A stretch of 51,820 nt of DNA, from assembly GCA_945883495.1 (NCBI GenBank), contig CAMCXS010000042.1, forward strand, positions 1 to 51,820, read 5' to 3'. The translations under genes were made by a program, and so were the position numbers. This DNA is from Akkermansia muciniphila (GTDB lineage Bacteria; Verrucomicrobiota; Verrucomicrobiia; Verrucomicrobiales; DEV007). The notes under the pieces were generated by a model. The model was not told where the DNA came from. It did not search any database and worked only from the letters and a program-made list of their open reading frames with translations. Below, in pieces: positions 15,976 through 27,503 of this stretch; the first letter of the stretch is position 1; each line of letters begins with the position of its first letter.

Positions 15976-16350
15976 ATGGAACCGAACGCCCCCGCTTTTC
16001 GCAATCCCGACTCTCTGCTGGAGTCCGGCAAAACCCAGGCGATGCGCGCCGCCGAGCAGTTGCGCAACGCGGCGGCTTCCACCGTCCAGCAATTCCGCAC
16101 CGTGGCGGAAGAGCGCGCGGACCAACTCCGCGCCGCCGCAGGGGAACAGACCGGCACGATGCGTGCCGCCGCCGAAGCACAAGCCGAGCAGCTCCGCGAT
16201 GCCGCCGAGGAACAATGGAGCCAGGCCCGCACCCATGTCCAAGATTGGCAGCAGGAGCTCGAAACCTATGTCCGGGCCAATCCAACCAAATCGATTTTGG
16301 CGACCTTTGGCCTCGGTCTCGTCCTTGGTCTCATGATGCGCCGTCGTTGA
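15976..16350 (+). CDS. YqjD/ElaB-like (DUF883) membrane-anchored protein
   Basis: Protein of 124 residues: a long Ala/Glu/Arg/Gln-rich amphipathic helix with repeated EQLRxAA units (for example AAEQLRNAAAS, ERADQLRAAAGEQ, AQAEQLRDAAEEQ) and one C-terminal transmembrane helix ending in LATFGLGLVLGLMMRRR. This is the DUF883 design. In E. coli these proteins anchor to the inner membrane and can bind ribosomes in stationary phase. It is followed by two small membrane genes, matching the yqjD-yqjE-yqjK order. Confidence 0.78.
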   Translation: MEPNAPAFRNPDSLLESGKTQAMRAAEQLRNAAASTVQQFRTVAEERADQLRAAAGEQTGTMRAAAEAQAEQLRDAAEEQWSQARTHVQDWQQELETYVRANPTKSILATFGLGLVLGLMMRRR

Positions 16351-16379
16351 TCGTGCGGCTTCCACCCTTTCTCCGATTG

Positions 16380-16790
16380 ATGGCTGGCCCCTTTGGCGAT
16401 GACGGCGTACCCGGAAAACAGATCGGGGTCACCACGCGCAATCTCATCGCCCACCTTCAGGCACGCACCCAGTTGCTGGCGCTGGAAACCCGGGAGGCTT
16501 ACCGGGAACTGTGCGGCCGGTCGCTGTTCGGGGCGATTGGAGCTCTCCTCATTTTGATCGGCTATCTGCTGACGCTGACCTGCGTCGTGCCGCTGTTAGC
16601 GGAGAGCCTCAAGGTCCGCTGGCAATTTGTCGGCCTCGTGTTGGCGGCCTTACACCTCATAGCCGGCCTCGTTGTGCTCTGGATCGCGCGTCGCCGCTTC
16701 TCGGCGGTCCTCTACGAATGCACTCTCTCCGAACTGGAAAAGGATCGCCAATGGCTCGCCCGGAACCAGCCCGCAACCCCTCGAAATTAG
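16380..16790 (+). CDS. YqjE / Phage_holin_3_6-like membrane protein
   Basis: Protein of 136 residues with a short soluble N-terminus (NLIAHLQARTQLLALETREA), two transmembrane helices (about 45-95: SLFGAIGALLILIGYLLTL and FVGLVLAALHLIAGLVVLWI) and a charged tail. This matches the YqjE family, annotated as phage-holin-like although no phage is near. It overlaps the start of the next gene by 40 bases. A GTG nine codons upstream is an alternative start. Confidence 0.75.
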   Translation: MAGPFGDDGVPGKQIGVTTRNLIAHLQARTQLLALETREAYRELCGRSLFGAIGALLILIGYLLTLTCVVPLLAESLKVRWQFVGLVLAALHLIAGLVVLWIARRRFSAVLYECTLSELEKDRQWLARNQPATPRN

Positions 16791-17152
16791 AGCTCGTCGC
16801 GACGCTCGACCGGACCCGCGCCTCCCTCTCCCGGGATCTCGGAGGCATGGGGCGCGCTTTGGACTTGGGGACGAGGTTTCGACGGTCCTACGCCTCCGGA
16901 TCGTGGCGCTGGCTAGCGAGTGCCCTGGTGCTGGGAGTGGTCGCCGGCCTTCGCTTCATGTCGCCCTCAGCGCCACCGTCATCGAAAACCGCTCCGGCCG
17001 CCAAGCCGTCTGGAAACGGGGGCGGAATGATGGCAAACCTCGCGGGCGTTTTGCTCCGGCAGGTGCTCACAAGTGCAGCTCAACCCGCTTTGAGCCGGAT
17101 TTTAGGGCAAGAGATCGACAAATGGCTCAGCGCAGTATTGCGAAAGCCCTGA
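16751..17152 (+). CDS. small membrane protein, YqjK/DUF3618-like
   Basis: Protein of 133 residues. The N-terminal part (KLELVATLDRTRASLSRDLG) resembles the short helical leader of YqjK/DUF3618 proteins. One transmembrane helix follows (ASGSWRWLASALVLGVVAGL), then a Pro/Ala/Ser linker and a helical tail. The start lies inside the yqjE-like gene, pointing to translational coupling. Family assignment is tentative; position in the three-gene set is the main support. Confidence 0.6.
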   Translation: MARPEPARNPSKLELVATLDRTRASLSRDLGGMGRALDLGTRFRRSYASGSWRWLASALVLGVVAGLRFMSPSAPPSSKTAPAAKPSGNGGGMMANLAGVLLRQVLTSAAQPALSRILGQEIDKWLSAVLRKP

Positions 17153-17209
17153 CTCTTTGCTTAGCTGGCGCCCTCCCATCCGACGACCCTTGTCTTTTCA
17201 CGGCCTGCC

Positions 17210-18295
17210 ATGTCCGAAACCATCGCTACCCTTCCCCACATCGACGATTACCTGAATCTGTCGGTTGAATACGACGCCTCCGACCTGCACCTCTGCGCGG
17301 GCACCCAGCCCTCGTGGCGCCGCTACGGATTGTTGCAACCGATTTGGGAAAACGCAGCCGTCCTCACGGCGGAAGACATGGAGCGCATCGTCAAGGGCTT
17401 CATCGATGAGCGGAACTTCCAACGATTCATGGAGCGGGGTGACGCCGACTTCGCCTACGCCACGGCCACCCACCGTTTCCGGGCCAGTGTGGTGCGCCAG
17501 CGCTTGGGATGGACGGTCTGCTGCCGGGTGATTAACACCAAAGTCCGCTCCATGGACGAGTTGGGACTCCCCACCATTCTCAAGCCTCTCTTGGAATACA
17601 GCAGCGGTCTGATCCTTGTCACGGGCGGGATCGGCTCCGGGAAATCGACCACCCTGGCGGCCATGATCAATGAGATCAACACCACCCGCGCCGATCACAT
17701 CATCACCTTGGAAGACCCAGTCGAATACGTCATCGAGTCCAAGGCGTGCCACGTGAATCAACGGGAGGTCCACCTGCACACCGGCTCCTTCGCCCGCGCA
17801 TTGCGAGCCGCGCTCCGGGAAGACCCGGACGTGATCATGGTCGGGGAAATGCGGGACCTCGAAACCATCTCCCTGGCCATCACCGCCTCGGAAACCGGTC
17901 ACTTGGTCATGGGCACCCTGCACACCAGCTCGGCTGCCCGGACGCTCGACCGGGTGCTCGATGTATTCCCGGTCGATCAGCGGGATCAGATCCGCCAGAT
18001 GGTCAGCGAATCACTCCGGGGCGTCATCTGTCAGCAGCTCGTCCCCCGTTGTGACAAGGAAGGGCGGGTGCTGGCCCAGGAAATTCTCGTGAACTCCCCC
18101 GCCGTGTCCGCCTCCATCCGGGACGGCAAGACGTTCATGATCCCGGGCATCATGCAAACCGGCCGGAACATGGGCATGCGCCTGATGGACGATGTCCTCT
18201 ACGAACATCTCACCGCCGGGCGAATCTCCCAAGAGCAGTGCCTCATGCGCGCCGTGGACCAAACCACCATGAAGCAAAAACTCGGACTCGTCTGA
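17210..18295 (+). CDS. PilT/PilU-type pilus retraction ATPase
   Basis: Hexameric ATPase of the type IV pilus machine, 361 residues. The N-terminal PAS-like domain begins near ASDLHLCAG. Walker A is GGIGSGKS (139-146), the Asp box is THRFRAS to LEDPVEY, Walker B is DPDVIMVGEMRD (205-216), and the His box is GHLVMGTLHT (230-239). The C-terminal AIRNLIRE element of PilT is changed to AVSASIRDGK, closer to PilU. It is followed after 33 bases by a second ATPase of the same family. No pilin or assembly genes are in view. Confidence 0.9.
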   Translation: MSETIATLPHIDDYLNLSVEYDASDLHLCAGTQPSWRRYGLLQPIWENAAVLTAEDMERIVKGFIDERNFQRFMERGDADFAYATATHRFRASVVRQRLGWTVCCRVINTKVRSMDELGLPTILKPLLEYSSGLILVTGGIGSGKSTTLAAMINEINTTRADHIITLEDPVEYVIESKACHVNQREVHLHTGSFARALRAALREDPDVIMVGEMRDLETISLAITASETGHLVMGTLHTSSAARTLDRVLDVFPVDQRDQIRQMVSESLRGVICQQLVPRCDKEGRVLAQEILVNSPAVSASIRDGKTFMIPGIMQTGRNMGMRLMDDVLYEHLTAGRISQEQCLMRAVDQTTMKQKLGLV

Positions 18296-18328
18296 TATTG
18301 GACAACCCTCTCCGCGTTACCTCACGTC

Positions 18329-19417
18329 ATGCCTATCATCGACCAGTATTTTGAAGTGCTCGTCCAAGGGAGCGGTTCCGACCTTCACCTATCCGAAGGT
18401 CAACCCCCGAAAGCGCGCATTCACGGCTCCATCGTCCCGATCGCCGATGGCGAGCTCTCCCACGAAGCCATCAAGCAAATCCTCGCCGAGATTTGCGATC
18501 CGAAAGCCTTCGAACGCTTCCTCGAAGCAGGCGACCTCGACTTCGCTTACGAAATGGACGTGAATTCCCGTTTCCGCTGCAACTATTTCAAGCAGCAGAA
18601 CGGTCTCGCCGCCGTCTTCCGGCTCATCCCGACCAAGATCGCCACTCTCGATCAACTCGGAATTCCCAAGGCCGTCGAAGGCTTTGCCCACATGCGGAGC
18701 GGCATCGTCCTGGTCACCGGTCCCACCGGCTCCGGGAAATCGACGACCCTGGCGGCCCTCATCGACTTCATCAACACGAGCTACAACCGGCACATCGTCA
18801 CCATCGAGGAGCCGATCGAGTTCGTGCACCGCAACAAACAGTCGATCCTTACCCAGCGTGAGGTGGGAATTCACTGTCCGACGTTCGCGGACGGCCTCCG
18901 CGCCTCGCTCCGGGAAGACGCGGACATCGTGCTCGTCGGGGAGATGCGGGACCTGGAAACAATCTCCCTGGCGCTGACGGCCGCCGAAACTGGCCAGCTG
19001 GTCTTCGGGACGCTGCACACCAATAACGCCCGGAAGACCGTTGACCGGATCATCGACGTCTTCCCATCCGACCAACAGGCACAGGTTCGCACCATGCTTT
19101 CCTCCTCGCTCCGCGGGGTAGTCGCTCAGCTGCTCATGAAACGGATCGACCAGCCTGGCCGGGTTGCGGTGAACGAAATTCTCATCTCCACCCCCGCAGT
19201 CGGCGCGGTGATCCGGGAAGGCTCGACCTACAAGCTGTATGACGTCATCACCGGCGGCAAAGCCCACGGCATGCAGTTCATGGACGACGCCATCATGGCT
19301 CAGCTCATGGCCGGTCGCGTCTCACCCGTGGAAGCCTACATGAAGGGAACCGATAAGGCTCGCTTCGTGAAGTTCCTTCCGCCGGAGCACGCCGCGCTGG
19401 CAAATTCGGGAGGTTGA
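18329..19417 (+). CDS. pilT: PilT-type pilus retraction ATPase
   Basis: Type IV pilus twitching ATPase of 362 residues. It has the N-terminal SDLHLSEGQPP, Walker A GPTGSGKS (131-138), LDFAYEMD and VTIEEPIEFVH as acidic boxes, Walker B ADIVLVGEMRD, and the His box GQLVFGTLHTNNA. The C-terminal conserved element reads AVGAVIREGS. It shares the whole domain plan with the gene before it, so the pair is a PilT/PilU-like duplication in one operon. Which of the two is the main retraction motor is uncertain; this one has the more canonical Walker A. Confidence 0.88.
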   Translation: MPIIDQYFEVLVQGSGSDLHLSEGQPPKARIHGSIVPIADGELSHEAIKQILAEICDPKAFERFLEAGDLDFAYEMDVNSRFRCNYFKQQNGLAAVFRLIPTKIATLDQLGIPKAVEGFAHMRSGIVLVTGPTGSGKSTTLAALIDFINTSYNRHIVTIEEPIEFVHRNKQSILTQREVGIHCPTFADGLRASLREDADIVLVGEMRDLETISLALTAAETGQLVFGTLHTNNARKTVDRIIDVFPSDQQAQVRTMLSSSLRGVVAQLLMKRIDQPGRVAVNEILISTPAVGAVIREGSTYKLYDVITGGKAHGMQFMDDAIMAQLMAGRVSPVEAYMKGTDKARFVKFLPPEHAALANSGG

Positions 19418-19521
19418 GCCGGTCAGATTGCAAGGAGGCATAGCGGCCGGGCTGAAACGGCTGGTTGGGGACAACCAGCCTTGCCCAAGGACATCTGGCT
19501 GTCGGGACAAACTCCCGAGCA

Positions 19522-19557
19522 CAAAAGAGCCCCCAAGTGCGGGGGGGCACTCGGGGG
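19522..19557 (-). terminator. intrinsic terminator of the ExbB/ExbD operon
   Basis: On the minus strand a GC-rich stem (CCCCCGAGTGC pairing with GCACTTGGGGG, one internal mismatch, C-rich loop) is followed by CTCTTTTG. It lies 21 bases past the stop of the last gene of the minus-strand motor operon. No T tract exists on the plus strand, so it does not serve the pilT genes. Confidence 0.8.
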
Positions 19558-19578
19558 CGGGAAAAGACAGAAACAATC

Positions 19579-21135
19579 TCAGTCCAGCGTTTTCTTGGGT
19601 GGCCCAATCCGGACCGCGTTGGGATTCGGCGGCGGACCTGGAGGCGCAGCCAGCTGGAATCTCTGTACCTCGAAGTTCGGAATTCTCACCGCGATCTCGA
19701 TTCCAGTCGGAGGCGCATTGTAAAACTCCCAAGTTGCCGGCACTCCCACTTCATCGGCCACTTTGCGGGCTTCAAGGTACGTAGCGAAGCCGTCTTTGGC
19801 TACTTGGAACACGGCAACGCCCTTGGGATTTGCCTTAATGGAGCGCATCGTGCTCAGGAATAGGGATCTGGAATCAGCGATCTGCTCGACCGTTTCACCA
19901 CCTTCGGGGCGGGGTCTCATGACGACCTGCACCGCAGTATCCCCGGGCTTGACGACGGGCTCCATTGAGAACGTTTTTGCAAAGAGCTGACTGCCCGTCG
20001 CCCGCTGCAACGCCTCCGCGATTCGGAAAGCGTCGTAAACTGTCTTACTCTCAGCGGCGCTCTTGAAGGGCTCGTTGTCGGCCAAGGTCTTCACGTAATC
20101 CACCACACCGCGTGGCGTGTTCTTCACATCCGCAGCTTGGTTCCCGTAGCGGAAAACTAGATCTTTCCCTTTTGTTTCCACCTTGATCGTCTTCTTGGCG
20201 GGATCAGTGGAGGAATCAAGCGCCACCCACTTGGTGACATCTCCCTTGGCAGCGGCTACCACGGCATTTGCCACATCTGGCATGGGCTTGTTGAGCCGGA
20301 CCGAAATTTTACCGATGTCCGCAAGGAATTTGGTGTTCACCTCAAGTTGATCGGCAGCTAGGGCTTTGTAGGCGAGAGCGACCTGGTCCATCTGGAACTT
20401 CTCTGCTAGTGGCGAAATGATCGGCCAAGCCTTCTGGGCCTCGGCCGCACTGCCCAGCGCCTTTTCCAGCATTGGCCGGAACGGATTGATATCGACGGTC
20501 TGATAGCGGAAGCTAGAGCGAGCCTTCTCTAGGCCCGCAACCAACGGCGGGACATAGTCATCCTGCTTGTAGAAGTAAATCTTTCCTCCAGTGACAATCA
20601 CCCGAGTCTCCACGGCCTCCGCCGGGTAATCACGAGGATTGGGGAGGCGCACATAGGTGGGCGGTTCCGGTTTGTAGATCGGCGTTTCGTCCAGCAGTGC
20701 CTTCAACCGCTCGATCTCAGCAAGCAGCTTGTCCAAAAGCTCTCGCTGCGCATCCCGAACCTTGGTGTTGGTATCGATCTGCTTCTGGACGTCGTTGGCA
20801 TCCATCAGTTTGATGCGTTGCTTCACGGCAGTGAGATCCACCGTCTCAATCTGTTTGCTCACCTCAACGATCTTCTTCTTCGCGTCCAGCTCCTGCAATT
20901 TGGCTTGGGCTGGATCGATCTGAATCGGAGTCACAGTGGCCAACTGTTGCTGCAATTCCTCCAACTGTGCCTGAGTCACGTCGGGCAGCTCAGAAAAGAT
21001 TTTCCGAGCCGCTGAAGCGATACTGATCCCAATGGTGACCAAAACAATGAGAAGCACTCCCACCACGTTGGTCATGGTATCCATGAGAGCAACGAAGGGA
21101 AGCTCCTGTTCCTCGGCGTGTCTTCTGTGTGCCAT
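19579..21135 (-). CDS. large ExbD/TolR-like membrane protein with coiled coil
   Basis: Protein of 518 residues. The N-terminus carries one transmembrane helix with an ExbD-type proton-binding aspartate, PFVALMDTMTNVVGVLLIVL (D19). A coiled coil follows (about 50-155, QAQLEELQQQLATV and later heptads), then a large periplasmic region without a recognised peptidoglycan-binding motif. Usual ExbD or TolR proteins have about 140 residues, so this is much enlarged. It is the third gene of the zinc-ribbon ExbB / ExbD-like / ExbD-like operon and would form the stator-rotor unit with the channel gene. Both ExbD-like proteins begin MA-[HK]-RRH and place the Asp at the same position. Periplasmic task unknown. 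Confidence 0.75.
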   Translation of the reverse strand: MAHRRHAEEQELPFVALMDTMTNVVGVLLIVLVTIGISIASAARKIFSELPDVTQAQLEELQQQLATVTPIQIDPAQAKLQELDAKKKIVEVSKQIETVDLTAVKQRIKLMDANDVQKQIDTNTKVRDAQRELLDKLLAEIERLKALLDETPIYKPEPPTYVRLPNPRDYPAEAVETRVIVTGGKIYFYKQDDYVPPLVAGLEKARSSFRYQTVDINPFRPMLEKALGSAAEAQKAWPIISPLAEKFQMDQVALAYKALAADQLEVNTKFLADIGKISVRLNKPMPDVANAVVAAAKGDVTKWVALDSSTDPAKKTIKVETKGKDLVFRYGNQAADVKNTPRGVVDYVKTLADNEPFKSAAESKTVYDAFRIAEALQRATGSQLFAKTFSMEPVVKPGDTAVQVVMRPRPEGGETVEQIADSRSLFLSTMRSIKANPKGVAVFQVAKDGFATYLEARKVADEVGVPATWEFYNAPPTGIEIAVRIPNFEVQRFQLAAPPGPPPNPNAVRIGPPKKTLD

Positions 21136-21169
21136 GGCAGTGTCTTACAAAATTTAGTTTGCCTTCAGT

Positions 21170-22054
21170 TTATGCGGCCGGCTTCGGCGCCGCGGCTGCC
21201 ACTGGCGGTTTTGGAATGCTGCCCCGGAACTTGGCAAAGAGCTCCAAGTCCAATTTGCCTCGCCCCGGGATCGGCAACTTGCCGACCCGGATCTTGTAAT
21301 CCGAGCTGGCCCGGCCAGCTCCGTTGTTGAAGGCGCCTTGGCCGTCATCACGAATGAGGAAGAGAATCAGGGAATTCGGGTCCTTGGCCACTTCTCGCAG
21401 AAAGTGGTTGTAGGCCACGTCCGCCACCACCACCTCAGCAGATGCCCCTAAGCGGTAGTCTTCTCCCCAAGCACCCAACACTTGGAGAGCGCCGCCGTTG
21501 CATTCCACGAAGTAGACTTTCACGTTGTCGCCCATGCCGGCTCCTGAAGGCTGAACCACGACTGGCGGGATTTTCTTGTCCGGCGGAATCTTTCGTTTGT
21601 CGATTTCCGCAACGAGCAATGCCTTTTCCTTGTTCTGTTCTTCCTGCTGCTTCTTCAATCCCTCGATTTCCACCATCAGGTCATCGAGCTGCTTTTGTAA
21701 CTTGAGAATCGCCAGTTGATACTGCTCCTTCGAGTTCTTGGCGTCATCGATCAAACGCCGCAGTTTGAGGTATTTGTCTGTCTTTTCCTGGAGATCCTTT
21801 TGCGCCTTCTGCAGCTCCGCAACCGCAAGAGAGGCTTCCGCCTCCTTCTTCTTGTGCTCCTCCAGCTGCTTCTTCGTCTTCACAAACTCCTGAGAACGCT
21901 GAATTTCCTCAGGAGACCGGCCCTGAGTCTTCTGCGTTTGGGCCACGGCCATGACGACGATGATCAGGACGAGCACCCCGATGAGGGAGCAAAGAATGTC
22001 CAAGAAGGGGACCACGAGGATCTCGTCCTTGGCGGAATGTCTACGCTTTGCCAT
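21170..22054 (-). CDS. ExbD/TolR-like membrane protein with long coiled coil
   Basis: Protein of 294 residues. A short basic N-terminus leads into VVPFLDILCSLIGVLVLIIV, an ExbD-type helix with the key Asp at D19. A coiled coil spans about 50-150 (rich in K, E, Q), and a small C-terminal globular domain follows (DNVKVYFVECNGGALQV ... LILFLIRDDGQGAFNNG), ending in a Pro/Ala tail. It sits between the channel gene and the larger ExbD-like gene. The C-terminal domain has no family that I recognise. Confidence 0.77.
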   Translation of the reverse strand: MAKRRHSAKDEILVVPFLDILCSLIGVLVLIIVVMAVAQTQKTQGRSPEEIQRSQEFVKTKKQLEEHKKKEAEASLAVAELQKAQKDLQEKTDKYLKLRRLIDDAKNSKEQYQLAILKLQKQLDDLMVEIEGLKKQQEEQNKEKALLVAEIDKRKIPPDKKIPPVVVQPSGAGMGDNVKVYFVECNGGALQVLGAWGEDYRLGASAEVVVADVAYNHFLREVAKDPNSLILFLIRDDGQGAFNNGAGRASSDYKIRVGKLPIPGRGKLDLELFAKFRGSIPKPPVAAAAPKPAA

Positions 22055-22112
22055 GGGATGACGAAAAGGTTGAGATGGAAACGGGGCAGCTACCTTGGCC
22101 GTTTCAGTTCAG

Positions 22113-23681
22113 TCAACGGCCAAACCAGCCCTTCTTCTTCACTTGCTGAATGACGACCTGTTTCTCACCCAGGTCGGCCAATACCTTGTTGAGCCCCTCC
22201 ACCGCGGAGGTCAGGGCTTTCACGTAGTCGCTAGTGGACTTCGCGCTTTCGGACAATGGCCCCGTCAAATCTTCCCGCATCTTGGACATGATGGTTCCGA
22301 ACTCGGACGACGCCTTCTGCTCAAGCTTGCCCGCGTGATCCGCCAGCCCCTGAGAAATCGACCGGGTGTATTCGTTCGCTGACCGGGCACTCTCGCTCAC
22401 CGCCGAAAGCAACTCCGAGCGCAAGCTCTTCATTGTATCGACGAACTCCTCGGCCACCCGCTTCTCGTGCGCCGCCGCCCGGGCTTCCATCTGAATTGAC
22501 TGCTGCTTGATTTGCCCGGTCACTGCGGTCAACTCGCCCAAGAACTCTCGTTGCACCTGCGTCAACGCATTCACCAGCATGTTCATCATGCCCGCCGGGT
22601 CGCCCCCGGCCAATCCGCCGCCATCGTTCAGGCGGGGAAGCAGCACCTCGTTGCAGAACGCATCGATCTCGTTCAAGCAGTCGTCCTCATCCTTCGACAT
22701 CGTGTTCAGCGGGAAGTTGAGGATCATAGCGAGCAACAGACCGAGCAGGGTGGCGTCGAACGCCGTCCCCAAACCGCCCGTCACCGCACCGAGAGAGTTC
22801 TTGACCGCCTCAATGTCCTCCATGTTGGACAAATCCATCCCGCCGATGGCATGGGACAGACCGATAACCGTTCCAATGAATCCCAAAATCGGAATCGCCC
22901 AGAAGAACGCCTTGATCAGGGTGTAACTCCCTCCGATCCGCATGCTGTCGATGTCTGATTGGCTCTCCAGCATGTGGGCGACGCTGTCGTTATTCTGCTT
23001 GACTTCAAACAGCTCCAAGGCCTTGCGGATACGGTTCACCATCATGCTGTCACGCAATGCGTGTGGAAGCTTGTAGAGGTGATCAATGAAGCTCCCCACG
23101 TTGTCGGCATTGATTTCCGCTCCCAGTTCCCAAGGCAGAACGTTGAGAAGGAGGGCCTGGCGCTGCCGGCGCAGCATTTGGCTCTTGAAGAAAAGGATGA
23201 CCATCGCCCAGGCAAACAAAAGGAAGTTCGCAAAGGAGACTTCCCAGTGCTTGAAGAACAGCGAGGCAATGAACTGAATCCCGTTGTAATCAGAATGCTC
23301 AACCTCCTTGGGCGGGTTGAAGGGAAAGAGGATCGCCCCCAACAGCACGGTGAGTGCCAGCCCAATCCCAAAGCACACAAAGCCGTTCGGGTTCGTCGGG
23401 TCTTTCTCTTCCCACCCCCCCCGCTCGAACTGCTCGCGGTCATAGCCGCCCTCGGCTGCTTCCTCCTGCGCGCCCGTTTCTTCTTCTCCGGCATCGGGAG
23501 CCGTCAGCCCCAGCGATGGAGAAGGAATCTTCGGCTTCGGAATCCCCTGCAAGCTCGTTTGACTGCTGACCGTTTCCGGGATTTGCAACTTGGTGTTGCA
23601 ACCCGGACACCGGACATACTTTCCGGCAAATTCCGGTTCAGCTTGCAGCTGCATCTGGCAGGAGGGACATTCAAACTTCAT
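22113..23681 (-). CDS. zinc-ribbon MotA/TolQ/ExbB-family proton channel protein
   Basis: Protein of 522 residues. It opens with a zinc ribbon (C5, C8, C25, C28: FECPSCQ ... VRCPGC), followed by a low-complexity acidic linker. Four membrane segments follow (about 101-120, 150-165, 258-279, 305-324). The last two hold the family core IPILGFIGTVIGLSHAIGG and GLGTAFDATLLGLLLAMI. A cytoplasmic coiled-coil tail of about 170 residues ends the protein. The channel would use the ion gradient together with the two ExbD-like proteins. The zinc ribbon at the N-terminus is unusual for ExbB and seems typical of PVC-group proteins. No flagellar, Tol-Pal or TonB gene is near. Confidence 0.85.
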   Translation of the reverse strand: MKFECPSCQMQLQAEPEFAGKYVRCPGCNTKLQIPETVSSQTSLQGIPKPKIPSPSLGLTAPDAGEEETGAQEEAAEGGYDREQFERGGWEEKDPTNPNGFVCFGIGLALTVLLGAILFPFNPPKEVEHSDYNGIQFIASLFFKHWEVSFANFLLFAWAMVILFFKSQMLRRQRQALLLNVLPWELGAEINADNVGSFIDHLYKLPHALRDSMMVNRIRKALELFEVKQNNDSVAHMLESQSDIDSMRIGGSYTLIKAFFWAIPILGFIGTVIGLSHAIGGMDLSNMEDIEAVKNSLGAVTGGLGTAFDATLLGLLLAMILNFPLNTMSKDEDDCLNEIDAFCNEVLLPRLNDGGGLAGGDPAGMMNMLVNALTQVQREFLGELTAVTGQIKQQSIQMEARAAAHEKRVAEEFVDTMKSLRSELLSAVSESARSANEYTRSISQGLADHAGKLEQKASSEFGTIMSKMREDLTGPLSESAKSTSDYVKALTSAVEGLNKVLADLGEKQVVIQQVKKKGWFGR

Positions 23682-23960
23682 GATGAAACTCTAGGAGATT
23701 AAGGAATTCGGGGGGGACAGTGCAATCCTCTTTTGATGCAACTACCCGGTCACGGAAAGGTTTGGGATGTGAAAGGGGGGATGAAACCGGACATTGATTT
23801 CAGCCGTCCCCGGCCCGCCAGTTCACCTTGAATTGCCTTTTTGGTCAAGAGCAATCCTCCGCACATCCGTAGAAATCGAAAACTGAAAATCTTTCCGTCT
23901 GGCGCGGACTTTGCTAGCCTCGCGTGGCGCCCTTCCCTTCCCCCCTAATTCTTCGTTTCC

Positions 23961-24446
23961 ATGACTACAATCCCGACCGATCTCGCCCGCGTCGAACCCG
24001 CCACCATGGCTCAACTCGACGACCTCGTGGAGCTCGTCATGGAACTGTTCCGGATTGAACAAGATTTCAAACCAGACCGGGCCAAGCAAGAACAAGGGCT
24101 CCGCCTCATCCTGGAGCAGCCCAGCCGAGGACGCATCTTTATGGTCCGCACGGACCACAAAATCATTGGAATGGTCAACTTGCTCTTCACCATCAGTACT
24201 GCCGAGGGCGGCTTCGTGATCCTCATGGAAGATGTCATCATCCACCCCGACCACCGAGGTCACGGCTATGGCTCAATCCTCATGGAGCATGTATTAAAAT
24301 TCGCCCAGGAGAAGAACTTCCTTCGTATCACCCTTTTGACGGACGCCATCAGTGCCGAGTCCCAGCGGTTCTTCCACAAGTTCGGCTTCGACCGGTCCCA
24401 GATGGTCCCGATGCGCCTCAATCTCGGACCCGGCAAATCCTCATGA
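23961..24446 (+). CDS. GNAT-family N-acetyltransferase
   Basis: Acetyl-CoA dependent acetyltransferase of 161 residues. The acetyl-CoA-binding motif A is VILMEDVIIHPDHRGHGYGS (the R/Q-x-x-G-x-G/A pattern as RGHGYG), followed by MEHVLKFAQEKNFLRITLLTD and the end motif AESQRFFHKFGFDRSQM. The substrate cannot be told. The stop overlaps the start of the next small gene (ATGA). Confidence 0.88.
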   Translation: MTTIPTDLARVEPATMAQLDDLVELVMELFRIEQDFKPDRAKQEQGLRLILEQPSRGRIFMVRTDHKIIGMVNLLFTISTAEGGFVILMEDVIIHPDHRGHGYGSILMEHVLKFAQEKNFLRITLLTDAISAESQRFFHKFGFDRSQMVPMRLNLGPGKSS

Positions 24447-24745
24447 TGATTGCAACCATGCGCGGAGATTCGTTCGGCCAAGGCGCCCATGCCTTGGCTG
24501 CCGGAGAGAACGCTCTAGTGCTCTTCATGCTCGCCCTTCACATCTCGGTCCTCTGCCTAATCTTTCTCGTCGGCTGGTTCACCTGGCGCCGCCGCATCCG
24601 CACCAGTCTTCCCGCTGAAACAGAGGCACTTCTGGAGGAGTTAGAAGCCCCTTCCCGCCCGGTTGACTCCGCCGCCCCAGTTTCTACATGGGAGCGCGAC
24701 GCGGATTGGTGGAAGCCAGAAGCCGCTCAGGATGGGAAGGGATAA
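24443..24745 (+). CDS. small membrane protein
   Basis: Protein of 100 residues with one transmembrane helix (ALVLFMLALHISVLCLIFLV) followed by a basic WFTWRRRIR stretch and an acidic, tryptophan-bearing C-terminal tail, probably cytoplasmic. No known family. It starts on the ATGA that ends the GNAT gene, so the two are probably translated together. Its 3' end overlaps the convergent hydrolase gene by 19 bases. Confidence 0.6.
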   Translation: MMIATMRGDSFGQGAHALAAGENALVLFMLALHISVLCLIFLVGWFTWRRRIRTSLPAETEALLEELEAPSRPVDSAAPVSTWERDADWWKPEAAQDGKG

Positions 24746-25641
24746 GCTGGATAGCCCAGTTCATCGAGCCAGTTACCCGCGATCCGCCAGAGCTCCTCCC
24801 GGTGCGCACCGTGCAAAGGCTCGTGCAATCCGCCCGGGATCTCGTGATGTGCCTTCCGCCGACACGGCATCGTCTCAAAAAGCTCCCGGCTCAACGGTGG
24901 CGGACAAACTTCGTCCGCACTTCCATGCGTCATCAAGACATCCAGCCCCGCCGGCAGTAACGTCGCCGCCACTCGCACCCGCGTCGCCCGCTCAATCATC
25001 TGCGCGCCAAATCCAGCGGTGACCGTGTGGTGCAGCAGACGCTCCTCACTCCCGCCAACTCCGTCCGCCCCCGAGCCCAGCGAACGCTCCCGGCATTGCG
25101 CGGCTCTCACCCCGGTGTCGATCGGCAATCGCGGACACAGCACTCCGGCGATTGCCGCCACCCGCAGCAAAAACTTTGGCTGGCGCCAAGCGGGATCGAC
25201 CAACGGAGAACTCAACCACGCCATCCGGAACAAGCCGGGACGCCGCGCCAAGTAGTCGATGCTCAGATACGCACCGAACGAATGCGCGAACATCCCCAGC
25301 TCCGCGCCGTCCTCCAGCTCGTGCCGCAACTGCACCACCAAGTCATCCAAGAGCTCAATCAGCGCATCCCAACCAGGCACATGCCCCCGTTGCCCTGGGG
25401 AGCGCCCATGCCCGGGAAAATCAACGCCAATTCCCAAAATTCCACGCTCCGCGAAAAAGCGGCCAAGCGCCGAGTACCGGTGCAAATGGTCCCCCAACCC
25501 GTGCACCAGCAACATCCCGGCCACCGGTTTCCCAGGCGGCCGAAACACATGCCTGTAGACCGTGCATCCCGACGGAAAGCGATGCAGTTCCCCCTCTTGC
25601 GTCATGGTCAATTTGACGGGGGCGGGATGGCGCCCCATCAC
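24727..25641 (-). CDS. alpha/beta hydrolase, lysophospholipase/monoacylglycerol lipase type
   Basis: Hydrolase of 304 residues in the Hydrolase_4 (PldB/MGL) style. The oxyanion strand is MLLVHGLGDHLHRY, DFPGHGRSPGQRGHV follows, and the nucleophile elbow is FAHSFGAYL (S121), where the usual first Gly of GxSxG is Ala. The likely acid is D243 in MTHGSADEV, the base H273 in GGLHEPLHG. The substrate is probably a lysolipid or monoacylglycerol. The GTG start overlaps the stop of the FMN reductase gene (GTGA); an ATG directly after it is an equal alternative. Confidence 0.85.
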   Translation of the reverse strand: MMGRHPAPVKLTMTQEGELHRFPSGCTVYRHVFRPPGKPVAGMLLVHGLGDHLHRYSALGRFFAERGILGIGVDFPGHGRSPGQRGHVPGWDALIELLDDLVVQLRHELEDGAELGMFAHSFGAYLSIDYLARRPGLFRMAWLSSPLVDPAWRQPKFLLRVAAIAGVLCPRLPIDTGVRAAQCRERSLGSGADGVGGSEERLLHHTVTAGFGAQMIERATRVRVAATLLPAGLDVLMTHGSADEVCPPPLSRELFETMPCRRKAHHEIPGGLHEPLHGAHREELWRIAGNWLDELGYPAYPFPS

Positions 25642-26219
25642 TCCCCGCCCACTCGAAGCCGTACCAGTTGCTCCACGACCCGGCGCAGCGCCTTCCCCGC
25701 GCGCGGATCCGTCAACCCGCCTTGCTCGTCAAACGCCTGATACGCCTGCGACAGCGCGTATTGCGCGGGCACAACGTAGACACCGATGTTTCCCAAAATC
25801 TCCCGCAGGTGCCGCAACGCCCGGATTCCTCCCAAATTCCCCGGCGATGCCGCGATCAAGGCCGCCGTTTTCCCATCGTATGCTTGCAAGACCGGTTCCG
25901 AATCACTCTCCGCGCGGGAACACCAATCGATCGTATTCTTCAGCAGCGGCGTGATCGAACTGTTGTATTCCGGTGACGCAATCAAGAAGCCGTCGTGCTC
26001 AATCATGAGCGCTTTCAGCCGCTTTGCCGCTTCTGGCAACCCGTTCGCATCCTCCCAGTCTCCGTCGTAAAGCGGCATCGGATATTCCGCCAAATCAACC
26101 TCCGTCACCTCCGCGCCCGCCTCCCGCGCCAACTGGACGGCACAATGCAGCAACTTGCAATTCACGGAGTCGCGACGCGCACTCCCAGCCATAGCGAGGA
26201 TTTTCGGAACGGTTTCCAC
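25638..26219 (-). CDS. NADPH-dependent FMN reductase family protein
   Basis: Flavodoxin-like oxidoreductase of 193 residues with a GTG start. The phosphate-binding loop is AGSARRDSVN (11-20), and SPEYNSSITPLLKNTIDW is the conserved family motif contacting the flavin. ASPGNLGGIRALRHLR continues the NADPH_FMN_red pattern. The role is reduction of flavin, quinone, azo or metal substrates in the cytoplasm. It precedes and overlaps the hydrolase gene by four bases. Confidence 0.9.
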   Translation of the reverse strand: METVPKILAMAGSARRDSVNCKLLHCAVQLAREAGAEVTEVDLAEYPMPLYDGDWEDANGLPEAAKRLKALMIEHDGFLIASPEYNSSITPLLKNTIDWCSRAESDSEPVLQAYDGKTAALIAASPGNLGGIRALRHLREILGNIGVYVVPAQYALSQAYQAFDEQGGLTDPRAGKALRRVVEQLVRLRVGGE

Positions 26220-26261
26220 CAGCGTTTGACGCCGGACCCCATCATCGCCTTACTTGGAACG

Positions 26262-26732
26262 ATGCCGGCCATTGAGAAATCCGCCATCATTGCCACCGTC
26301 CGCGCTCACCTCCAGGCCCAGTACGATCGCATCGTCGGCGCCGCCCTCGAAGCGCGGGGCTACGCCACCGATCCTGGCAGCAAGGCGGAGTCCAAATACG
26401 ATACCCGCAGCCTCGAAGCCGCCTATCTCGCCATCGGTCAGGCCGAAAAAGCCGACGAACTCGCCGAAGCCCTCGCGGATTTCGATACCTTCGACTGGCC
26501 AAGCTTCCCGCCGGACGGCCGGATCGCTCTCGGCGCTTTGGTGGAGTTGGACTTTGATGGGGATCGCGTCTTTTGCCTCATCGGTCCCGGGGGCGGAGGC
26601 GTCTCTTGCCGCTTCGAGGGCGTCGAGGTCACCGTCGTGACCATCCAAGCCCCGCTCTACGCCCGCATCGCGAGCCGCCAAGCGGGCGATCTACTTCCCG
26701 GCCCCGCGCTCCGCATTCTCTCCGTCTGCTGA
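26262..26732 (+). CDS. GreA/GreB C-terminal (FKBP-like) domain protein
   Basis: Protein of 156 residues. The C-terminal half (RIALGALVELDFDGDRVFCL, then IGPGGGGV ... VVTIQAPLYARIASRQAGDLL) matches the FKBP-like RNA-polymerase-binding domain of Gre factors, including the closing SPL-x-x-A-L-x-G-K-x-x-G-D pattern as APLYARIASRQAGDLL. The N-terminal part is helical but lacks the long acidic-tipped Gre coiled coil, so it may bind RNA polymerase without stimulating cleavage. Its end overlaps the convergent membrane gene by 42 bases. Confidence 0.65.
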   Translation: MPAIEKSAIIATVRAHLQAQYDRIVGAALEARGYATDPGSKAESKYDTRSLEAAYLAIGQAEKADELAEALADFDTFDWPSFPPDGRIALGALVELDFDGDRVFCLIGPGGGGVSCRFEGVEVTVVTIQAPLYARIASRQAGDLLPGPALRILSVC

Positions 26733-27503
26733 CTTCCCCTCGAGATACCTCCCGGCCAAAACCAACCCCGCGAGCGGCGCCAGCACCGAGAGCAGCTGCA
26801 CCCCGGCCAAGCCAATCATTCCCAAAAACGCGCTAGTCGTCATCACGAGGGCCCAACGAGGTGGCCAAAGAATCAGCGTCGCCAACAGCCCCTCGCTTAC
26901 GATCACCCCTCGGGCAAACCACCCGGAACACGCTCGCAGCGTCTCGTCACTCCAATTTGCCCGCATCCAATCAAACGGGAAGTACGGCTTCTGTACCACG
27001 TAGAGCTGATAAAACGCTTCCCCATTCCAGTAATCCGGAGTCAGCTTGCCAATCACTCCGCCCAAAAAACAGAGCCCCACGATCCCCTGCCCCAGCGCGA
27101 TCGCATGCCGCTCCACTCCCACATTCCCGTCCTCAATCCGCCGGGCCCACCACACCAACCAGAGCGCGCTCCAGAACGCCGCGGCATAGCTCGCGTCGTT
27201 GTAACTGGCAATGTGCCCCAGCAACCCCAACGCGCAAAGCACCAGCCCCACCGCCAGCCCACGGAGCACCCGCACGTCCGCCACCCCAAATCCCGCCCCG
27301 CCCCCTAGCGCCAGCACGAACATCCCGAGCGCCACGCCGGGATTCCGCATCGCCTCCGGAAACAGCCAATGTTCCGTGATGGGAGTCTCCAACCCCGCCA
27401 GGAACAGCCGCGTATTCTCGACCGTGTTCACGAACCAGCCAATGAGCCACCCCGCCAAGGCGATCCTCCAGGCCTTCCGCCGGATCTGAACACGTAACGT
27501 CAT
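26691..27503 (-). CDS. polytopic membrane protein, possibly HTTM-like
   Basis: Protein of 270 residues with about six hydrophobic segments (for example ALAGWLIGWFV, ALGMFVLALGGGAG, GLAVGLVLCALGLLGHIA, GLVLAGRYL). The stretch YNDASYAAAFWSALWLVWW and VVQKPYFPFDWMRANWSDET are the most distinctive. The topology recalls HTTM/DoxX-like membrane proteins, but I cannot confirm a family. Its start overlaps the stop of the gene before by four bases (ATGA), so the two form a pair. Confidence 0.65.
   Translation of the reverse strand: MTLRVQIRRKAWRIALAGWLIGWFVNTVENTRLFLAGLETPITEHWLFPEAMRNPGVALGMFVLALGGGAGFGVADVRVLRGLAVGLVLCALGLLGHIASYNDASYAAAFWSALWLVWWARRIEDGNVGVERHAIALGQGIVGLCFLGGVIGKLTPDYWNGEAFYQLYVVQKPYFPFDWMRANWSDETLRACSGWFARGVIVSEGLLATLILWPPRWALVMTTSAFLGMIGLAGVQLLSVLAPLAGLVLAGRYLEGKSADGENAERGAGK

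Follow-up and report, generated by a model that had tools for sequence, protein, structure and literature searches.

In rotary models of MotAB, ExbBD, and TolQR, the axle is taken to be a pair of identical helices with one Asp each. A gene trio of Akkermansia muciniphila (assembly GCA_945883495.1) raises the question of whether the two axle positions of such a motor could be taken by two different proteins. The trio lies on the minus strand of contig CAMCXS010000042.1, within the 51,820-nucleotide stretch analyzed here (hereafter, the window), and has the order B-D1-D2. B (22113..23681) encodes a 522 amino acid MotA/TolQ/ExbB-type ring protein, assigned by a match to PF01618, hydropathy, and alignment A1; D1 (21170..22054; 294 amino acids) and D2 (19579..21135; 518 amino acids) encode axle-type partners, assigned by AlphaFold2 models and a VIA match to the TolR structure 5by4. 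The intergenic gaps span 58 bases (B/D1) and 34 bases (D1/D2), and a strong intrinsic terminator lies past D2 on the same strand (19529..19558; 12-pair stem, loop of 6, T-rich tail), terminator-like sites being in no excess region-wide (5 found vs 5.8 in shuffles). All three genes were confirmed at their stated positions, and these open reading frames (ORFs), their order, and the closing terminator agree with an original prediction made from this DNA, which had also proposed that the two partners could form a heterodimer in one ring.

Our comparative analysis shows that D1 and D2 are unequal partners, which is the main new finding, and favors, with a probability of roughly 0.6, an ion-driven MotA/ExbB-type motor of 5:1:1 composition whose axle would be a D1:D2 hetero-pair.

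D1 and D2 are unequal partners

A scan of genome contigs yielded 28 loci, 26 of which are true relatives and all of which (26/26) have the order B-D1-D2, including L043, in which D2 runs past the contig end, and L067, in which B is broken (L, G, and C labels denote loci, genomes, and contigs of the compared set). L068 and L069 were rejected as motor loci, as they correspond to zinc-ribbon-only matches in non-motor proteins. In a sample of the phylum, 93 of 387 genomes matched the B profile (E ≤ 1e-10), a count that includes distant relatives without the ribbon. We added 60 further stretches and assigned clades I to IV by B score and D residues: clade I, the window type, has 29 loci including the 26; clade II has 27 loci, also with the zinc ribbon; clade III has 22 loci with a short B; and clade IV has seven loci with a long B that lacks the ribbon. 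The more remote L119 was left unplaced. Clades I and II together make up the zinc-ribbon family (56 loci); 30 short loci (L012-L041), many of which are places that were refetched at greater length, were not counted and show the same gene order wherever they are long enough.

In the window, both D1 and D2 have a single membrane segment and an Asp at residue 19 (codons at 21998..22000 and 21079..21081, respectively, minus strand). The MA-[HK]-RRH start and Asp19 that the original prediction had described as common to both are real in the window proteins, but the start is only loosely kept among relatives. Both window proteins thus have the axle hallmark of a single membrane helix with an Asp near its cytoplasmic end, but when membrane segments were aligned with the Asp column masked, site 19 of D1 was Asp in 29/29 clade I loci and Ser in 27/27 clade II loci. 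In D2, Asp19 was found in 27/27 clade I loci plus L160 and L161 (29 in all) and in 24/24 clade II loci plus L140 and the copy in G175 (26 in all), i.e., in 55/55 readable cases. No substitute acid was found in clade II D1 from positions -6 to +17 relative to site 19, and two of these proteins have an Asp at +18. The view of D1 and D2 as equivalent partners therefore fails in the sister group, where an axle made of D1 alone would lack the usual Asp for carrying ions.

This bears directly on a reading with two separate homodimeric motors, B5(D1)2 and B5(D2)2, serving different loads. Such an arrangement would suit the window clade, in which both partners carry Asp19, and both AglRQ and AglRS of Myxococcus xanthus are described as theoretically able to form MotAB-like channels (PMC9389320; papers given by accession are cited from their accessible parts). 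However, D1 of clade II is retained in 27/27 loci although it has neither the Asp nor a substitute acid, so that B5(D1)2 would not work in that clade as a motor driven through the customary Asp, and we consider this reading very unlikely.

Another rival places a D2 homodimer in the ring, as in ExbBD and MotAB, with D1 as an accessory beside it, e.g., a plug, an anchor, or a load-sensing stalk. The presence of the D2 Asp in 55/55 readable cases next to a dispensable D1 Asp agrees with this, and TonB and TolA provide examples of single-pass partners outside such rings (PMC12215075). Nevertheless, the D1 membrane segment follows the pattern PFLxILxxxIGxL and is about as strictly kept as that of D2: mean pairwise identity in clade II is 71% for D1 and 70% for D2 (70% and 68% without the Asp column), as opposed to 29% and 26% in the stalks and 31% and 31% in the outer domains. 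Conservation of this degree would be expected if D1 lies in the ring, whereas an ordinary anchor would have no need of it. The corresponding segments of clade I have identities of 88% (D1) and 94% (D2); near-identical strains were collapsed at 90% identity for these values, leaving 21 D1 and 20 D2 sequences in clade I and 27 and 24 in clade II. Two further points, the similar lengths of the D1 and D2 stalks and the B tree, which in its simplest reading has clade I D1 gaining an Asp exactly at the axle site, also speak against a D2 homodimer (see below), and we regard it as unlikely.

Outside the zinc-ribbon family (read partly by eye), the Asp of D1 is present in 22/22 clade III loci and that of D2 in 20 of the 21 loci with a D2; many clade III D2 proteins also have a Glu or Asp four residues ahead of the Asp (by eye). 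In clade IV, the first D gene lacks the Asp in five of six readable loci (C, C, A, C, S) and has it in L159, and the second D gene has it in 6/6, L117 being unreadable. A rule of two acids per D1:D2 pair fits clades I and II and was rejected, as it fails in clade III.

The trio is kept in the zinc-ribbon family

D1 follows B in 56/56 loci of the zinc-ribbon family, and D2 comes next in 52/56, although it is broken in L140, where a stop interrupts the frame close to the start and the frame later changes; only the readable residues of this D2 were counted. The spacing between B and D1 is 552 bases in L127 and within about 100 bases in every other clade I or II locus. The four genomes without an adjacent D2 carry this gene on a separate contig; it is complete in G312, G027, and G175 and fragmentary in G024. 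The D2 of L100 (G312) lies whole on contig C40. L129 and L126 reach contig ends and the contig of L108 stops after D1; their D2 genes were found on C128 (whole), C223 (a fragment of the C-terminal part), and C46 (353 amino acids of open frame, including the Asp), respectively. In G312, a short segment adjoining the split trio (L100:2080-2380) resembles a transposase remnant by eye and may explain the displacement of D2 in this genome. Synteny of the trio, which the original prediction had proposed to examine, was found across these relatives, and a chance pairing of ORFs is ruled out, as the trio is preserved in 26/26 true loci.

D1 and D2 correspond to two old families. Profiles built from clade I only score the clade II D1 proteins at 68-208 bits and the clade II D2 proteins at 104-191 bits, with cross scores of 0-28 bits. 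Orthology of D1 and of D2 is well supported, because own-family scores lie far above cross scores. Apart from the trio and spurious overlapping ORFs, the largest cluster of neighboring genes spans 6/26 loci (gpsA-like by eye; some flanks are short). Since no cluster is common to more than six of the 26 loci, the trio is a unit of its own.

Concerted changes along the presumed ion path

In the tree of B, clade I forms one clade (100/100) that is nested inside clade II. Clade II was monophyletic in 0/200 bootstrap trees and was likewise not one clade in a quick tree, and forcing it together (without L107) was rejected (p-AU 0.0037). In the quick tree, which has 80 rows and leaves out the near-copies L043, L045, L049, L052, L059, and L067, some long branches (L108, L114) are drawn together; these branches are omitted from the careful tree, of 50 rows. 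Clade II had been named from the D1 residue before any tree was built, and L107 (from the one-clade test) and L108 (from the set) were removed after the quick tree. The simplest history would have Ser as the earlier state of D1 site 19 in the ribbon family, with Asp arising on the clade I stem; the alternative would call for about four separate losses. Taken over the four clades together, on a tree without a known root, a minimum of two switches between Asp and its absence is required.

We then compared clades I and II over 1,016 aligned columns (402 of B, 258 of D1, and 356 of D2), with a criterion of at least 90% conservation in both clades. By this measure 92 of the 1,016 columns are conserved in both, and six are fixed differently (clade I/clade II): D1 D19/S, D2 V15/D, D2 A16/S, B A310/T, B A318/S, and B H145/R. 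D2 has Val15 and Ala16 (codons at 21088..21093, minus strand) in 27/27 clade I proteins each, and Asp and Ser in 24/24 clade II proteins each. Both B A310 and B A318 lie in membrane segment 4 (22728..22754, minus strand), in positions that we presume to be pore-facing; residue 310 is Ala in 29/29 clade I loci and Thr in 27/27 clade II loci, and residue 318 is Ala in 29/29 and Ser in 26/27, respectively. Five of the six differences fall in or beside the axle segment or ring segment 4, the presumed ion path, a hint that D1, D2, and B may share one path for ions.

The ring protein B

B matches the Pfam MotA_ExbB family (PF01618) at 48.2 bits against a cut-off of 22.9 (50.7 bits in the genome scan); in profile searches of solved structures it returned apolipoprotein matches. 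Hydropathy analysis showed four hydrophobic segments (residues 101-119, 147-165, 255-273, and 303-321). MotA has an N-in, four-segment topology, and ExbB and TolQ have three segments; because of its four segments, B appears to be of the MotA-like, N-in kind and not of the three-segment kind. A GT motif in segment 3 is present in 29/29 clade I and 27/27 clade II loci, and the Thr next after A310 is invariant in alignment A1, so that the pattern agrees with the PF01618 feature of Thr residues in segments 3 and 4 facing the Asp. Judging by this pattern, we take these positions to be the channel Thr residues of ExbB/TolQ.

The original prediction had described B as a MotA/TolQ/ExbB core with a C4 zinc ribbon and a tail. 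The core passes the PF01618 cut-off and the C-terminal tail is about 170 amino acids long, whereas the ribbon is supported by its Cys pattern but not by curated zinc-ribbon profiles, all of which scored B below cut-off; zinc binding is thus putative. The four residues (C5, C8, C25, and C28; 23598..23669, minus strand) are invariant in the 19 rows of alignment A1, and a CxxC..CxxC pattern is found in 27/29 clade I and 24/27 clade II loci. In the five loci that miss it (L052, L067, L127, L128, and L140), the N-terminus of B is apparently cut off or broken. At the other end of the protein, a KKKGWF motif (22122..22139, minus strand) is present in 19/19 rows of A1. The more general pattern [KRN][KRQ]KG[WLF][FL] is found in 25/29 clade I and 6/27 clade II loci; many of the clade II proteins that miss it have looser endings such as QKKGWFSR, and L106, L107, and L108 have nothing similar. 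This KKGWF/KKKGWF end is kept in most relatives though the intervening tail varies, and it may be a docking peptide.

Outer domains and stalks of D1 and D2

The description of D1 and D2 as ExbD-like held in part: neither protein matches PF02472 (ExbD) at E ≤ 1, and neither is among the 11 PF02472 matches of the genome, but in VIA a TolR domain ranks first for both. A TolR profile matched D1 weakly, at 17.5 bits against a cut-off of 162. The AlphaFold2 monomer of D1 (pLDDT 80.2, pTM 0.39) shows a single helix of 107 residues (48-154), which would span about 16 nm, followed by a small alpha/beta domain. That of D2 (pLDDT 75.4, pTM 0.59) shows a broken, low-confidence stalk; its alpha/beta domain is split by a helical insert at about residues 210-286 (20278..20508, minus strand), which is helical in the model and appears as a gap block in alignment A3; the insert is found in long D2 proteins and is missing from the short ones of 368-400 amino acids. 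Against TolR 5by4, the outer domain of D1 gave Z 7.2 (rmsd 2.9, 84 residues) and that of D2 gave Z 7.5 (rmsd 3.6, 93 residues). ExbD rows for D1 followed at Z 6.1, 6.0, and 5.7, amid unrelated RNase-H-like and kinase rows of up to 6.4. VIA Z values by themselves are insufficient to settle homology with TolR. Profile searches of solved structures returned coiled-coil matches for both proteins, together with weak MotB matches for D1 (E 0.028) and other weak matches for D2.

Measured from the Asp to the conserved beginning of the outer domain, the stalks comprise 138-147 residues in D1 and 141-148 in D2 (51 loci). Beyond the zinc-ribbon family, both stalks are short in clade IV and both are long in clade III (by eye).

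A D1:D2 hetero-pair as the favored axle

The retention of both D genes, their similar stalks, the conserved membrane segment of Asp-less D1, and the concerted changes along the ion path lead us to favor a D1:D2 hetero-pair; the heterodimer in one ring that had been proposed is thereby partly supported, by comparison, as a candidate arrangement. In the mechanism we envisage, five B subunits would form the ring, with one D1 and one D2 helix in its pore. D2 would be the indispensable carrier of the ion-binding Asp, and D1 would fill the second axle position, with Asp in the window clade or Ser in the sister lineages. By analogy with the family, ions would pass between ring and axle via the D2 Asp, and B would be turned or switched around D1:D2. 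The paired stalks, of 138-148 residues, would carry two TolR/ExbD-like domains toward the peptidoglycan or the outer membrane, and the cytoplasmic zinc ribbon and KKGWF-type tail end could hold the ring in place or relay its movement to a partner in the cytoplasm. The gene trio, its conservation, the residue patterns, and the similarity in stalk length are observed; stoichiometry, ion flow, rotation, and anchoring are all inferred, and transfer of force or signals in the cell envelope is the cellular role that we favor.

A more specific and more tentative proposal, to which we give somewhat less than even odds, is a family of 5:1:1 motors with an asymmetric axle, in which D2 would carry the only classical carboxylate in most zinc-ribbon lineages and the motor would take five steps per turn, not ten, or act as a one-way switch. 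The window clade would then have re-evolved the D1 Asp (Ser to Asp) as D2 lost an additional acid located one turn away, Asp15 (to Val), and ring segment 4 lost two hydroxyls, i.e., the second carboxylate would have moved between the axle proteins.

Several observations weigh against the hetero-pair. The AlphaFold2 models are of D1 and D2 monomers only and include no ring or complex. As to the TolR assignment of the outer domains, PF02472 is unmatched, all TolR Z values lie below 8, the TolR match of D1 exceeds unrelated rows by less than 1 Z and that of D2 exceeds the next row (5.0) by 2.5, and neither model had a Foldseek match at E ≤ 0.001, with TolR at rank 2 for D2 (E 0.10) and no ExbD or TolR among the 50 rows listed for D1. 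Within a pair, the two stalks differ by up to 10 residues, and their lengths do not covary inside the zinc-ribbon family (r = -0.38). Pore segments hold 36-37 of the 92 conserved columns, so that the chance of finding five of six differences there is about 0.03-0.04, for segments that were named afterwards; all six differences, moreover, fall on a single branch of the B tree and therefore represent one correlated episode and not repeated ones. One clade III D2, that of L152 (G167), carries Gly in place of its Asp; no other D2 of this kind was seen. Finally, a homolog with a single ExbD-type gene, the case that the original prediction had named as contrary to its proposal, was not found in the zinc-ribbon family, but the distant clade III locus L118 shows B and D1 followed by a RecQ-like gene. 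Its genome gave no D2 when searched with the profile of clade I, whose reach may not extend to clade III, and L118 is a possible one-D case.

Genomic neighborhood

Within the window (ORFs listed for positions 16000-27500), the trio is flanked upstream by a divergent GNAT acetyltransferase gene and downstream by two adjacent, convergent genes for PilT/PilU-family ATPases (17210-19417), which point at the end of the trio and match TIGR01420 at 424 and 426 bits (cut-off 319). No pilT-like gene was seen by eye among up to eight neighbors per locus in 12 relatives. Likewise, no tonB, tol-pal, or Zorya gene adjoins the window trio, the nearest neighbors having been assigned by profile, in agreement with what had been reported from the sequence, and no tonB, tolA, tolB, or pal gene was seen beside the trio in the flanks of 12 relatives inspected by eye.

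An additional energizer of a Ton or Tol system would account for the ring family match and the TolR-like outer domains of the partners. However, tonB, tolA, tolB, and pal were not seen beside the trio, the stalks of about 145 residues and the lack of a PF02472 match do not fit, and Ton/Tol duty is unlikely because ten MotA_ExbB matches besides B, together with eleven to canonical ExbD, are present in the genome; we deem this reading extremely improbable.

A Zorya-like or other anti-phage motor, whose tail would recruit an effector encoded elsewhere, draws on the resemblance of B to ZorA profiles (best E 9.7e-10), on the long tail that B shares with ZorA (PMC11890865), and on the clade III loci L118 and L114, which lie beside GAP1-N2/GAP1-M or DO-GTPase2-like genes. 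Against this, the NCBIfam ZorA profiles scored 26.3 of 100 and 23 of 500 bits and ZorB1 13.6 of 400, no ZorC, ZorD, or ZorE was seen beside the trio (window neighbors by profile, 12 relatives by eye), clusters of neighbors beyond the trio span at most 6/26 loci, and D1 and D2 have no OmpA-type domain match (Pfam, E ≤ 1). A Zorya operon proper was rejected, as its partner genes were not seen and the profile cut-offs were not reached, and the broader anti-phage reading seems decidedly improbable.

Other neighbors differ among lineages. Upstream of B, L048, L049, L050, and L067 have a block that resembles lpxD-, ompH-, and bamA-like outer-membrane assembly genes (by eye), and in six other genomes a gpsA-like gene precedes B, accompanied in five of the six by a plsY-like gene. 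Proteins of 963-1042 amino acids are encoded upstream of the short-B motors in L109, L110, L111, and L112; the two that were scanned, those of L109 and L111, had no Pfam match at E ≤ 0.001. The clade III locus L118 (38-5209) adjoins GAP1-N2/GAP1-M genes (72.9 and 30.9 bits, above cut-off), and DO-GTPase2-like genes (below cut-off) lie beside the motor in both L118 and L114 (233-6301); distant clade III motors may thus be tied to GTPase-associated systems. Elsewhere in the genome of the window, a second, diverged MotA/ExbB-type match of 25.5 bits (G000:C88:22039-22224) lies in an open frame of 509 amino acids, with one TAA inside the match.

Comparison with known motors

The E. coli motors ExbB5-ExbD2 and TolQ5-TolR2 resemble the proposed complex in having a ring and an axle with Asp, but their axle is homodimeric, their linker is short, and their ring subunit has three segments. 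Cryo-EM of the E. coli Ton and Tol motors shows two identical axle helices about half a turn apart, with the two TolR Asp residues in different environments (PMC12215075). Because identical helices already differ in placement and Asp environment, a fixed division of labor between two axle helices is plausible. GldL5-GldM2, of type 9 secretion and gliding, is comparable in its long periplasmic shaft (18 nm in GldM), but is set apart by its description: GldM is a dimer of one protein, and there is no obvious sequence homology with MotAB (PMC9389320). Zorya ZorA5-ZorB2 shares weak profile similarity and a ring of the MotA/ExbB type that carries a long cytoplasmic extension at its C-terminus (PMC11890865), but has a single type of ZorB with a peptidoglycan-binding domain and further defense genes. 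As with the ZorA extension, the zinc ribbon and tail of B point to a cytoplasmic anchor or output.

Two tandem axle genes behind one ring gene are also found in the tonB-exbB-exbD1-exbD2 cluster of Xanthomonas campestris, in which the exbD genes have differing mutant phenotypes and exbD2 is dispensable for iron uptake (PMC3551730). Unlike the trio, this is a Ton system with tonB, and the accessible part of that paper mentions no zinc ribbon or long stalk. In the genome of the window itself, canonical ExbD genes stand side by side as pairs at three loci (C1, C7, and C16); in the two pairs readable by pattern, those on C1 and C7, both partners have the Asp.

The closest precedent, and the closest in layout, is the AglR-AglQ-AglS gliding motor of M. 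xanthus, which likewise combines a single gene of the MotA/TolQ/ExbB type with two unlike genes of the ExbD/TolR type; this layout of a ring gene adjoined by two different axle genes is found in 52/56 loci of the zinc-ribbon family. According to a 2022 review, it was not yet known whether the AglRQS axle is a hetero- or a homodimer (PMC9389320), and no later answer was found among the papers listed in a literature search whose reach largely excludes subscription journals and bioRxiv. AglQ (162 amino acids) and AglS (194 amino acids) are short members of PF02472 (PMC3169522), and both are described with the conserved Asp (PMC9389320). The trio differs in that its partners do not match PF02472 (E ≤ 1) and have long stalks, in the zinc ribbon on B, and in a D1 that may be without Asp. 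An exact-phrase search of the same reach found, among the matches listed, no description of an axle partner without Asp.

One ring gene with two ExbD/TolR-type partners is thus not new as such, AglRQS and the Xanthomonas system having been published; what is new here is that the partners are unequal and that a natural Ser/Asp switch is present in D1. Nature offers both states, as close relatives have either Asp or Ser in D1 and a constant Asp in D2, and, if the hetero-pair is true, purified complexes from both groups would reveal directly the number of steps in a turn and whether a single carboxylate is enough for an axle.

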